Shown here: one piece after another, positions 7,152 through 59,831 of the stretch
Position numbering within the stretch: the stretch's first letter is position 1
Layout: each line of letters starts with the position of its first letter
Source of the DNA: Nitratidesulfovibrio sp. SRB-5
GTDB lineage: Bacteria > Desulfobacterota > Desulfovibrionia > Desulfovibrionales > Desulfovibrionaceae
Length of the DNA stretch: 64,000 nucleotides
Assembly: GCF_019931275.1 (NCBI RefSeq)
Contig: NZ_JAIOTY010000001.1
Coordinates: 1,584,650 to 1,648,649 of the forward strand
Direction: 5' to 3'
The notes under the pieces: model-generated
Databases searched by the model: none
What the model saw: only the letters and a program-made list of their open reading frames with translations
Told to the model about the DNA's origin: nothing
Program-made: the position numbers and the translations under genes

Positions 7152-7325
7152 GGGCCTGTTTCCAAAAGCAGGATTTTCGTCCGTTGGCAAGGAGAACACG
7201 TCTGCCATGAGGGAGGCCTCGGTCGTTGCGTGAGCGAAGCGAATTTTACGGATGATGCCGCAACCATGCTTCGCGCCCTACGGGGCGGACGCCAACGGGC
7301 GAAAAGACAGGTTGGGAGCAGGCCC
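7152..7325 (-). repeat. stop-codon-associated structured repeat, copy at hslU (diverged, 174 bp)
   Basis: Imperfect terminal inverted repeats of about 36 bp open with GGGCCTG at both ends and run to CGTTGGC. Inner blocks shared with the copies at 40799-40924 and 58618-58743 are AAAATCCTGC, TTCTCCTTGCCAACG and CGCCCGTTGGC. The outer end overlaps the last base of the hslU stop codon. The middle is longer and diverged compared with the 126-bp copies. Read from the hslU side it has the same orientation as the other two copies. Confidence 0.7.
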
Positions 7326-8776
7326 TACAGGATGTAGCGGCTGAGATCCTTGTTGGCGCGCACGTCGGCCAGGTGCTCGCGCACGTAGTCGCTGTCCACG
7401 GTCACCCGGTCGCCGGAGCGGTCGGGTGCCTCGAACGAAAGGTCGGCCAGGATTTTTTCCAGGATGGTGTACAGCCGCCGCGCCCCGATGTTTTCGGTCT
7501 GGGCGTTGGTTTCTTCGGCAAAGGCGGCGATTTCGCGCAAGGCGTCGCCGGTGAATTCGATGTGCACGCCTTCCGTTTGCAGCAGCGCGGTGTACTGCCG
7601 GGTAAGCGCATTGTGCGGCTCGGTGAGGATGCGCAGGAAGTCGTCCTTTCCGAGCGCGGACAACTCCGCCCGCAGGGGAAAGCGCCCCTGCAATTCCGGA
7701 ATCAGGTCCGAGGGCTTGCTGAAATGGAACGCCCCGGCGGCGATGAACAGGATGTGGTCGGTGCGCACCATGCCGTACTTGGTGTTGACCACGCTGCCTT
7801 CCACGATGGGCAGCAGGTCGCGCTGCACCCCTTCGCGCGAGACGTCGGAGCTTTTCTGGGTACTGCCGCTGGCGATCTTGTCGATTTCGTCGATGAAGAT
7901 GATGCCGGTCTGCTCCACGCGTTCGCGGGCCAGGTCGGACACGCGGTCGTGGTCGATGAGCCGGTCGGCCTCTTCCTGCGTCAGCAGGTTGAAGGCATCG
8001 CGCACCTTCATGCGGCGGCGCTTGCGGCGCGAGGGAAAGACCTTGCTGAACATGTCGCGCACCTGCGAGCCCACGTCCTCCAGCCCCGGCATGGACAGTA
8101 CGCCCACCTGCGGCCCGCCGGATTCCTCCACCTCCATGTCCACCTCGCGGTCGTCCAGCTTGCCGCCGTGCCACAGGGTGCGCAGCTTTTCGCGGGTGGA
8201 GGAGCGGCTGTCCGGCACGGAGCCGGTGCCCGTGGGCGGGGACGCGTGGGACGCATCGGCCTGCGCCGGGGGCTGGGGAATGGCCTGTCCGCCAGAATGG
8301 CTGGCGGAAAGGTCGAAGGTCAGGCCGCCCATGCCTTGTGCCGGGGCAGGCTGGGGCGCGCCGCCGGGCAGCAGCAGGTCCAGCAGGCGTTCCTCTGCGC
8401 GGGCCTCGGCCTTCACGCGCACCTTCTCGTTTTCCTCGGCCCGCACCAGGGCGATGCCGATTTCCATCAGGTCGCGCACCATGGATTCCACGTCGCGGCC
8501 CACGTAGCCCACCTCGGTGAACTTGGTGGCCTCCACCTTGATGAACGGTGACGCGGAAAGCTTGGCCAGCCGCCGGGCTATCTCGGTCTTGCCGACGCCG
8601 GTGGGGCCCATCATGATGATGTTCTTGGGGGCTATCTCGTCGCGCAGGGCCGGGTCCAGCTGCTGGCGGCGCCAGCGGTTGCGCATGGCCACGGCCACCA
8701 TGCGCTTGGCGGCGTTCTGGCCCACGATGTACTTGTCCAGTTCCGAAACGATTTCACGGGGGGTGAGGTTGCTCAT
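7325..8776 (-). CDS. hslU: HslU ATPase, unfoldase of the HslVU protease
   Basis: A 483-residue AAA+ (Clp/Hsp100) protein. Walker A GPTGVGKT lies at about residues 57-64, Walker B is FIDEIDKIA and the sensor region has the usual HslU layout. The C-terminus DLSRYIL matches the tail that docks into HslV. The I-domain carries about 60 extra residues rich in Pro, Gln, Ala and Ser, so the protein is longer than common HslU (about 440-460). The start [10 protein letters not shown] is typical of the family; a longer frame to 9031 is not. hslV is not adjacent, so the peptidase partner must be encoded elsewhere. The gene lies between htrA and argB on the same strand. Confidence 0.95.
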
Positions 8777-39918: not shown

Positions 39919-40798
39919 CGCCATCACCCCGCAAGCGGGCGCGCACGCCACCACCCTGGGCACGGGGTTCACCGACAACCCCTACCTGCCCGACGTGGCC
40001 ACCGTGCTGGAAACCGTGCAGGAAACCCCGACCATCAAGACCCTGCGCGTGCGCATCGACGACCCGGCGCGCATGGAGTCCTTCCGCTTCAACCCCGGCC
40101 AGGTGGGCCAGCTTTCGCTGTTCGGCGTGGGCGAATCCACCTTCGTCATCAACTCGCCGCCCACCCGCATGGACTACCTGCAATTCAGCATCATGCGCGC
40201 GGGTGAGGTGACCGCCGCCCTGCACGGGCTGAAGCCCGGCGACAAGGTGGGCGTGCGCGCCCCGCTGGGCAACTGGTTTCCGTTCGAGGACATGCGCGGC
40301 AAGGACATAGTGTTCGTGGGCGGGGGCATCGGCATGGCCCCGCTGCGCACGCTGCTGCTGTACATGCTGGACAACCGGGCCGACTACGGCAACATCACGC
40401 TGCTGTACGGCGCGCGTACGCCGAGCGACATGGCCTTCCGCGACGACGTGCAGGAATGGCTGGGCCGCTCCGACATGCAGACCACGCTGACCGTGGACCA
40501 GGCCCCGGAAGACTGGCCGCACCGTGCGGGGCTGATTCCCCACGTGCTGCTGGACCTGGCCCCGTCCAATGCCAACAGTGTTGCCGTGCTGTGCGGCCCG
40601 CCCATCATGATCAAGTTCACGGTGGAAGCGCTGAAGAAACTGCACTTCGCCGACGAGCAGATCATCACCACGCTGGAACGGCGCATGAAGTGCGGCATCG
40701 GCATCTGCGGGCGCTGCAACATCGGCACGAAATACGTGTGCATGGACGGGCCGGTGTTTACGTATGCGGAGTTGCGCGACTTGCCCAACGAACTCTAA
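39911..40798 (+). CDS. flxA: FlxA, NAD(H)- and flavin-binding subunit
   Basis: A 295-residue ferredoxin-reductase-type flavoprotein like PyrK/AsrB. The flavin domain (about 25-125) contains FNPGQVGQLS and TFVINSPP. The nucleotide domain starts at FVGGGIGMAPLRTLL, and a [2Fe-2S]-type CGIGICGRCNIGTKYVC motif ends the protein. It is expected to accept electrons from NADH and pass them to FlxB. It overlaps flxB by eight bases. A 126-bp structured repeat begins at the base after its stop codon. Confidence 0.93.
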   Translation: MPDAITPQAGAHATTLGTGFTDNPYLPDVATVLETVQETPTIKTLRVRIDDPARMESFRFNPGQVGQLSLFGVGESTFVINSPPTRMDYLQFSIMRAGEVTAALHGLKPGDKVGVRAPLGNWFPFEDMRGKDIVFVGGGIGMAPLRTLLLYMLDNRADYGNITLLYGARTPSDMAFRDDVQEWLGRSDMQTTLTVDQAPEDWPHRAGLIPHVLLDLAPSNANSVAVLCGPPIMIKFTVEALKKLHFADEQIITTLERRMKCGIGICGRCNIGTKYVCMDGPVFTYAELRDLPNEL

Positions 40799-40924
40799 CC
40801 GCAAGTTGGCTTTTGCCCGCTGGCTGCGTCAACCGGCGCCCGCCATGCGGTCGAATACGAGAAGAGTATGCTCCCGCCTGGCGGGCTTGGTTTCCTTGCC
40901 AGCGAACAAAATCCTGCCTTGCGG
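40799..40924 (+). repeat. stop-codon-associated structured repeat, copy at flxA (126 bp)
   Basis: Starts immediately after the flxA TAA. Outer inverted ends are CCGCAAG / CTTGCGG. An inner stem pairs TTTTGCCCGCTGGC with GCCAGCGAACAAAA, and the centre contains GAGTATGCTCCC. It aligns nearly end to end with the copy at 58618-58743, same length and same orientation relative to the upstream gene. Base-pairing over the whole unit predicts a long hairpin in the mRNA 3' end. Confidence 0.82.
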
Positions 40925-50348: not shown

Positions 50349-50425
50349 GCGCCCGTAGCTCAGTCGGATAGAGCGATAGCCTCCTAAGCTGTAGGCCACA
50401 GGTTCGATTCCTGTCGGGCGCACCA
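50349..50425 (+). tRNA. tRNA-Arg (anticodon CCT)
   Basis: The acceptor stem GCGCCCG pairs with CGGGCGC, followed by discriminator A and an encoded CCA. The anticodon stem ATAGC/GCTGT encloses the loop CTCCTAA with anticodon CCT, reading AGG codons. The T arm GGTTCGATTCC is standard. No integrase or repeated tRNA fragment lies next to it. Confidence 0.95.
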
Positions 50426-58617: not shown

Positions 58618-58743
58618 GCGCGCGGCAGGATTTTTTCTGCTGGCAAGGAAAACGCGCCTGCCAGAAGGGAGCGTACTCTTGGGTACGTGACCGAACTGGC
58701 AGGCAGCGTTTGACGCAGCCAGCAGGAAAAAGACGCCGCGCGC
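58618..58743 (-). repeat. stop-codon-associated structured repeat, copy at gcvT (126 bp)
   Basis: Nearly exact relative of the copy at 40799-40924. Outer inverted ends are GCGCGCGGC; an inner GCCTGCCAG / CTGGCAGGC stem with AAACGC / GCGTTT and a GTAC palindrome build a long hairpin. Its end overlaps the last base of the gcvT stop codon. It separates gcvT from rsmE. Confidence 0.82.
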
Positions 58744-59831
58744 TAGATCAGTTTGGTCCGCGCTGTCCCTTGCGTATAGAACGGCAACGCCACGCGGGTG
58801 GCTTCCAGTTCCACCTTGGCGGCCTTGACCACGAAAGTGGGGGCCTCGGCATGGGCGGCGGCAACGCGGGCCAGCGCCACGGCGTAGCCCAGCGTGGGGC
58901 AGAACGATCCGCTGGTCACCACGCCGGCAACGGTGCCGTCGGGCAGGGCCACCACGTCGCCGTGGCGGGCGCTGCGGCGACCGGGAATGGACAGCGCCAC
59001 CAGCGGCTCGCGCACTTCGCGGTCCGCGCCCTTGCCCACGTAGTCGGCAGGGTTGGTCAGCATGGAGCCGTAGCCCGCTTCCGCCGGGGTGTGGGTGTCG
59101 TCCAGGTCGTGGCCGTACAGGGGCAGGCCCACTTCCAGACGCAGGGTGTCACGCGCGCCAAGGCCCGCGGGCTTCACGCGCTCGTCGGCCAGCAGGGCGG
59201 TCCACAGGGCCTCGGCCTTGTCCCAGGGCAGGTACAGTTCCACGCCCAGTTCGCCGGTGTAACCAGTCCGACTGACCAGCAGCGGCGCGCCGCCGAAGAC
59301 CACGGAACGGAAGCCGAAATAGGGCAGGTCGCGGAAGCTTTCGCCCAGCACCGCTTCCAGCACGTCGAACGACTTGGGGCCTTGCAGGTCCAGCTTGGCG
59401 GTGCGGGCCGAGATGTCCTCGAAGGGCAGGGCGGCGGGCAGGCGCGAACGCAGGGCGGCGAAGTCGCTTTCTGTGCAGGCGCCGTTGACCACCAGCATGT
59501 AGTCGTCCTCGGCGATGCAGTACACGATGAGGTCGTCCAGGATGCCGCCCGCCTCGTTCAGCAGAAAGCCGTAACGGCAACGGCCGGGCTTCAGCGTTTC
59601 CAGGTTGTGGCTGACGGCGCGGGACAGCGCACCGCGCGCTCCGGGGCCGCGCAGGGTGAATTCGCCCATGTGGCAGATGTCGAACAGGGCGGCGGATTCA
59701 CGCGTCTGCACGTGCTCGGCGATGATGCCGGTGGGGTACTGGATGGGCATGTCCCACCCGGCAAAGGGGGCCATCTTGGCCCCGGCGGCCCGGTGCCACG
59801 CGGAAAGCGGGGTTTGCAGCAGGTCCGACAA
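58743..59831 (-). CDS. gcvT: aminomethyltransferase (glycine cleavage T protein)
   Basis: A 362-residue tetrahydrofolate enzyme of the glycine cleavage system. Motifs include MAPFAGWDMPIQY, FDICHMGEF, YMLVVNGACTESDF, SRTGYTGELGVELY and the C-terminal YTQGTARTKLI. The TTG at 59831 is chosen: AAGGAG lies six bases before it and the resulting length equals that of known GcvT proteins. ATG 59873 is a possible alternative but lacks a ribosome site. The gcvH and gcvP genes are not adjacent. Confidence 0.92.
   Translation of the reverse strand: MSDLLQTPLSAWHRAAGAKMAPFAGWDMPIQYPTGIIAEHVQTRESAALFDICHMGEFTLRGPGARGALSRAVSHNLETLKPGRCRYGFLLNEAGGILDDLIVYCIAEDDYMLVVNGACTESDFAALRSRLPAALPFEDISARTAKLDLQGPKSFDVLEAVLGESFRDLPYFGFRSVVFGGAPLLVSRTGYTGELGVELYLPWDKAEALWTALLADERVKPAGLGARDTLRLEVGLPLYGHDLDDTHTPAEAGYGSMLTNPADYVGKGADREVREPLVALSIPGRRSARHGDVVALPDGTVAGVVTSGSFCPTLGYAVALARVAAAHAEAPTFVVKAAKVELEATRVALPFYTQGTARTKLI

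Follow-up and report, generated by a model that had tools for sequence, protein, structure and literature searches.

Palindromic hairpin repeats, probably MITE-like, at stop codons in Nitratidesulfovibrio

Imperfect hairpins lying behind a gene's stop codon, with an active bottom strand, are known from the attC sites of integrons. Unlike those of attC sites, the three genes followed by the hairpin repeat in the stretch analyzed here are ordinary chromosomal genes, as established by NCBIfam for HslU and GcvT, both of which score above the corresponding cut-offs. The nearest known kind of element is the TA-flanked bacterial MITE, as represented by ERIC, RUP and Correia. According to the sections available to us of a published account, the enterobacterial ERIC or IRU element (127 bp) resembles the present repeat in its size, its inverted repeat and its terminal TA with target duplication, is co-transcribed with its neighbours and has an orientation that is said to matter for mRNA stability (PMC2229807). 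Those same sections make no mention of placement at stop codons or of a strict orientation (PMC2229807), and ERIC as described there also differs from the present repeat in that here the ends are non-conserved, the inner loops are conserved, and copies nest and stack. Similarly, the RUP and Correia/NEMIS MITEs, as far as that account describes them, are alike in length (approximately 100-200 bp), terminal TA and stem-loop transcripts; for RUP, IS630-Spn1, whose ends match, is the presumed mobilizer (PMC2229807), whereas here none of the eight genomes of the genus contains a match to DDE_3, the IS630 profile.

Hairpins at gene ends have also been reported in Desulfovibrio ND132, in which all six sequence gaps lay at coding-region junctions and five of the six had secondary structure. 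The gaps contained strong GC-rich hairpins, two of which shared sequence and fold, and the excerpts of the report at hand treat them as single gaps or possible terminators, and not as a repeat family or a mobile element (PMC3409199). Judged by this partial description, they may be of the same sort as the family presented here. Literature searches revealed no such family in the titles and abstract openings of the best-ranked matches, which were mostly open-access papers.

Hairpin copies in the window and their distribution

The window, that is, the whole 64,000-nt stretch of DNA analyzed here, belongs to the genome of Nitratidesulfovibrio sp. SRB-5 (G000; same-genus genomes are designated G001-G007). 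A first-pass annotation had placed three copies of a structured repeat at, or one base inside, the stop codons of hslU, an flxA-like gene and gcvT, and these coordinates were borne out. The TAA stop codon of the flxA-like gene (40796..40798, + strand) is directly adjoined by a 126-nt copy forming a full hairpin with arms CCGCAAG/CTTGCGG (40799..40924, + strand; 107.6 bits). The gcvT copy, which we refer to as the old gcvT copy, is also a full hairpin of 126 nt, with arms GCGCGCGGC/GCCGCGCGC (58618..58743, - strand; 109.2 bits), and its first paired base is the G of the gcvT stop codon, a TAG in the context CTAG (58743..58745, - strand). At hslU, the first base of a diverged, 174-nt copy (7152..7325, - strand) is the third base of the TAG stop codon (7325..7327, - strand). 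This copy, to which the covariance model described below gives a weak match when run on the window (27.9 bits, E 1.1e-5), contains a probable insert that replaces its apical part (7216..7290, - strand, with limits set by eye) and resembles a second hairpin family, family B.

The hairpin fold attributed to all three copies was upheld by dinucleotide shuffling, which yielded z-scores of -5.2 and -9.6 for the 126-nt copies, with none of 200 shuffles folding as well, and of -4.1 for the hslU copy. The product of the flxA-like gene is an FAD/NAD-binding electron-transfer protein, for which no NCBIfam model scored above its cut-off. An Rfam scan of the window assigned no hairpin at gathering score; the single match that reached it is a tRNA gene at 50349-50422 (+ strand).

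To survey the whole genome, we ran blastn with the gcvT copy, which yielded 43 matches, aligned 23 full copies and derived from these a covariance model, R1. In the window's genome, R1 yielded at least 109 matches at E ≤ 1 and at least 99 at E < 0.01, copy counts being lower bounds because the 150 best candidates were scored per genome in this census. The 99 copies constitute the set used here; it excludes 10 of the 109 matches (E 0.0148-0.445), of which three turned out to be hairpin-filled copies at stop codons. Using genes called with a codon-usage gene finder written for this analysis, we determined that 91 of the 99 copies, at 89 distinct stops, are preceded by a gene of the same sense (binomial p 6e-19), and 8 by a gene on the opposite strand. 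The gene that follows the 91 sense copies is co-directional in 63 cases and convergent in 28. The start of the model lies 6-20 nt 3' of the stop in 69 of the 99 copies, corresponding to 69 distinct stops. In 46 of these 69 near copies, automatic recognition found an outer arm with complementarity running from the stop's third base onwards; this base is itself paired in 36 of the 46. The other 30 copies, examined by eye, mostly have an inserted second hairpin or are the second copy in a stack. The opposite orientation is nearly absent; in a single case does a gene on the other strand have its stop no more than 30 nt from the core end of a copy.

The stop-codon hairpins are therefore real, genome-wide and a much larger set than first noted, and both the placement at stops and the fixed orientation hold across the genome. 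Such placement is not random. The end arms differ in sequence between copies, yet stay complementary to each other, and the inner loops are conserved. Matches span 130 nt or more in 19 of the 99 copies. Identity between own copies reaches 95.7% at most over 110 nt, which gives no sign of a very recent jump. One copy is located 242 bases from the end of contig C1 of the window's genome, and contig C8 (9.7 kb) harbors two copies; hairpins of this kind may break assemblies.

In the seven other same-genus genomes, where 98 candidates were scored, R1 matches number at least 71-98 per genome, and 18 of 39 relative genomes have R1 matches. In G007, 94 of 103 copies follow a gene of the same sense and 79 of the 103 lie within 25 nt of its stop, the outer arm being recognized automatically in 62 of these 79. 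Beyond the genus, 35 loci were represented by their best copy, which at 26 of them lies directly behind a sense ORF of at least 80 codons, as counted without a shuffled control; the arms of these copies differ. Across the order, at least 67 of 247 genomes and at least 18 of 51 genera present a match at E ≤ 1e-4 among the best 15 candidates per genome. Placement, orientation and hairpin fold hence extend beyond the genus, on a smaller sample. Several stretches contain multiple copies: one stop codon in G048 (L306, 1501-2217) is followed by five copies in tandem, repeating every 152 bases, and double copies occur in L303, L312, L318 and L070. A strong R1 match (79.6 bits) was also found at L382 3488-3597 (- strand), in a record named Deltaproteobacteria bacterium isolate TD116_bin81.

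Strand of the fold and turnover of copies

The stems of the repeat covary, with double changes in 22 of 30 pairs among 23 copies. Within eight orthologous pairs that a crude classification assigned to the same copy, we counted 5 double changes that keep pairing, whereas Watson-Crick pairing was lost through a single change 11 times. In 92 own copies, the mRNA strand has 49 G.U cells against 99 A.C cells, and in 103 G007 copies 29 against 116, with some of the A.C columns probably misaligned. Of 192 copies, 184 fold better as the strand opposite to the mRNA, the mean advantage being 11.1-14.2 kcal/mol as compared to 3.7-5.3 in doublet shuffles; with DNA parameters, the opposite strand is the better one in 56 of 56. 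The consensus energy computed on the same 23 copies is -54.3 for the opposite strand and -37.3 for the mRNA strand, and conserved tandem U.G pairs close the inner loop on the opposite strand only. In the best 70 copies, the mRNA strand has an average of 0.31 Shine-Dalgarno-like 4-mers per copy, against 4.24 for the opposite strand. Taken together, these data suggest that the constraint on the repeat does not look like one on 3'-UTR RNA, and that a folded strand of polarity opposite to the mRNA, be it DNA or RNA, would be a better candidate.

Comparison of the window's genome with G007 revealed extensive turnover. The 59 distinct orthologous stops, classified from model hits after dropping 6 of 67 pairs and merging two doubly counted stops, fall into four classes: the same copy is present at 17, a different one at 27 (including 8 borderline calls), a remnant at 1 and no copy at 14, the last class being under-counted because the G007 stretches were chosen around G007 copies. 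These stretches hold no orthologue for 32 of the 99 own copies. Left-overs of the other species' copy were detected downstream at 16 of the 27 different-copy stops, in 10 cases with E ≤ 1e-9. The stop codon itself has changed at 12 of the 27 different-copy stops versus 2 of the 17 same-copy stops (p 0.044); since stops also differ in 8 of the 14 orthologues without a copy, this change is not specific to copies.

The histories of individual sites (hslU, gcvT, a near-empty site and the 30 off-position copies) were read by eye. At hslU, the long element is present in G000 and G002, and the six other species retain arm remnants only. At gcvT, no copy is found in G001, G004 and G006, where TAA is followed by native sequence; the old copy of the window is shared by G000 and G002; and in G003, G005 and G007 a new copy sits between the stop and the old copy. 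The joint in G005 is CTA[GGGGCTG...CAACCCC]TAGCGCGCGG, that is, TAG followed by the old arm CGCGCGG, and the corresponding window sequence is CTAGCGCGCGG. This joint (CTA[..]TAG) is a duplication of TA inside the stop codon, with the first G of the element completing TAG. It is the one case of a clean TA duplication, the second TAG being preceded by one extra T in G003 and G007. G006, although it has no copy, has the gcvT gene closest to that of the window's genome (96.7%); the gcvT states do not follow gcvT similarity, indicating that loss or recombination also acts. At the near-empty site (pair 82), the filled sequence is ...TTAA[..]TTAA.. and the empty one ...CTAG... In pair 37, a single comparison by eye, a native-looking hairpin persists downstream of the copy.

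Target choice and a proposed mode of insertion

The context of the copies points to TA within a stop codon as the target. Of 108 copies with a recognizable arm partner, 10 have a TA directly after the base that pairs with the third base of the stop, versus 1.5% in the background (p 6e-6). TAG is enriched among the stops that carry copies, accounting for 53 of 69 in the window's genome and 65 of 79 in G007, compared to 399 of 798 background gene ends in G007. A pyrimidine precedes TAG in 35 of the 53 own copies versus about 31% of the background, whose counts, for p-values, were recomputed from rounded fractions. A count over 1.34 Mb gave 129 stops with CTAG and approximately 110 other noncoding CTAG sites (both-strand count halved); for TTAG, the corresponding figures are 22 and 199. 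Picking YTAG sites at random from noncoding DNA would consequently not put nearly all copies at stops, and CTAG, being a palindrome, cannot set their orientation. Two further models were discarded. Random use of TAG or TAA in noncoding DNA was rejected on the window's 27 stops versus 116 other TAG/TAA sites. A fold-back model, in which arms are copied from the flanks, was rejected on the longest words shared with flanks, which were at the level of swapped loci, with the exception of words of at least 10 nt downstream of the 3' arm (11.6% vs. 2.2%), which derive in part from older neighboring copies.

Based on the placement, polarity, turnover and strand of fold reported above, and on the clean TA duplication at gcvT, we consider it probable (about 0.72) that these repeats are MITE-like, non-autonomous, palindromic elements that insert at the TA of stop codons, preferably CTAG or TTAG, duplicate the TA and maintain a fixed polarity. 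Such an origin, which the first-pass annotation had raised as an alternative, fits the data best. An element would insert at the TA of the stop codon and duplicate it, and the G of the element would rebuild TAG. We infer that the element acts as a folded single strand with polarity opposite to the mRNA, on which alone the conserved tandem U.G pairs form. An enzyme supplied in trans, from outside the four families searched for here, would recognize the conserved inner loops. Somewhat more weakly, polarity might be kept by the purging of insertions in the other orientation, because these would put a stronger hairpin and Shine-Dalgarno-like loops into the mRNA. Several points weigh against the MITE reading. 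The end arms are non-conserved, unlike those of usual MITEs; the window's genome has no intact match to the four mobilizer families searched; the TA duplication is clean in a single case; and random use of TA does not account for the stop specificity.

We also entertain, tentatively, the more specific proposal that the element, in sense orientation, targets the translation stop codon as such, that complementarity and not sequence defines its ends, and that its enzyme reads the folded anti-mRNA strand. The choice of stops may be linked to the termination of transcription or translation. By landing on a stop codon, an element would enter a gene-dense genome without breaking genes, since the stop is rebuilt from TA and G and the copy comes to lie in the 3' UTR. 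The insertions of this family form a natural record that can be counted and used to study how so specific a target is found. The family may also be relevant to failures of assembly and sequencing in this group, and to mRNA 3' ends in sulfate reducers.

Alternative explanations and a second hairpin family

The TA duplication at G005 gcvT, the 10 of 108 copies with a further TA and the CTAG-like preference seen in the pyrimidine before TAG would also be expected of MITEs of an IS630/Tc1-mariner element that has since been lost from the genus. The IS630-family element ISY100 duplicates TA, according to the part of the report available (PMC2170065), and a preference of IS630 for CTAG is indicated by a title in the reference list of the same paper (PMC2170065). 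We searched 37-38 relatives with the Y1_Tnp, DDE_Tnp_1, DDE_3 and RVT_1 profiles, and found no intact match to these four families (RAYT, IS4/IS5, IS630 and reverse transcriptase, respectively) in the window's genome. DDE_3 is absent from all eight genomes of the genus. DDE_Tnp_1 is absent from the window's genome, with single matches in G002, G004, G006 and G007, and RVT_1, likewise absent from it, is present in G006 and G007. A search of G000 and G007 for a long autonomous partner sharing the common arm GGGGCTGTTTCCAAATT, one arm type in two genomes, returned none; with up to 3 mismatches, 16 of the 18 stretches that were read contained this arm, either in hairpin-filled copies or standing alone. 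Given, in addition, that arms differ between copies, with no conserved terminal inverted repeats, and that a symmetric mechanism yields neither orientation nor stop specificity, we regard a lost IS630/Tc1-mariner parent as unlikely.

Somewhat less likely still is the function proposed in the first-pass annotation, that of a 3'-UTR RNA element (terminator, mRNA stabilizer or operon insulator) that selection would maintain at gene ends. Sense orientation in 91 of 99 copies and stop placement in 69 of 99 agree with such a role, as do the compensatory stem changes, both in the 22 of 30 pairs and in the 5 double changes set against 11 losses among orthologues. Tight co-directional junctions are also underrepresented among copies (8 of 63 vs. 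30% of 592; p 0.003, with background counts again recomputed from rounded fractions), although selection against polar effects would give the same pattern. Against this role, none of 69 copies has a U-tract (at least 5 T in the 8 nt behind the hairpin), the mRNA strand is the one that folds worse (184 of 192 copies), and it displays no excess of G.U cells over A.C cells (49 and 29 vs. 99 and 116). Moreover, the copy is different or absent at 41 of 59 orthologous stops, the hslU copy has decayed in six of eight species, and the native-looking hairpin of pair 37 has been retained downstream of the copy. Convergent gene ends are not preferred (28 of 91 copies vs. 186 of 778 in the background; p 0.16), and terminator-like hairpins further downstream are similarly frequent behind copies (11 of 28 convergent and 5 of 50 co-directional) and in the background (58 of 186 and 44 of 369). 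A 3'-UTR function is, accordingly, not supported.

A REP-type repeat mobilized by a RAYT (TnpA-REP), an HUH transposase that works on single-stranded hairpins, would share the palindromic structure, high copy number, strand-polar fold and TAG beside the hairpin foot, but is very improbable, as the eight genomes of the genus, some of them incomplete, contain no intact Y1_Tnp (a broken RAYT-like remnant with an internal stop in the window's genome, G000:C1:239748-240005, a partial match in G001 and none in the six others), and the window copies measure 126-174 nt versus the 20-40 nt given for REP in the part of the source available (PMC3733652).

Family B, the smaller hairpin with a core like AGCCGTTAGGCGAGC..GAGCCTTACGG, occurs both free and inside copies of the first family, where it occupies two loops, in either orientation and with up to three hairpins per copy. 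Instances were identified in the window (7216-7290), in L256, L262, L267, L269 and L271, and downstream of gcvT in G003 and G007. Orthologous copies of the first family can differ by a family B hairpin alone.
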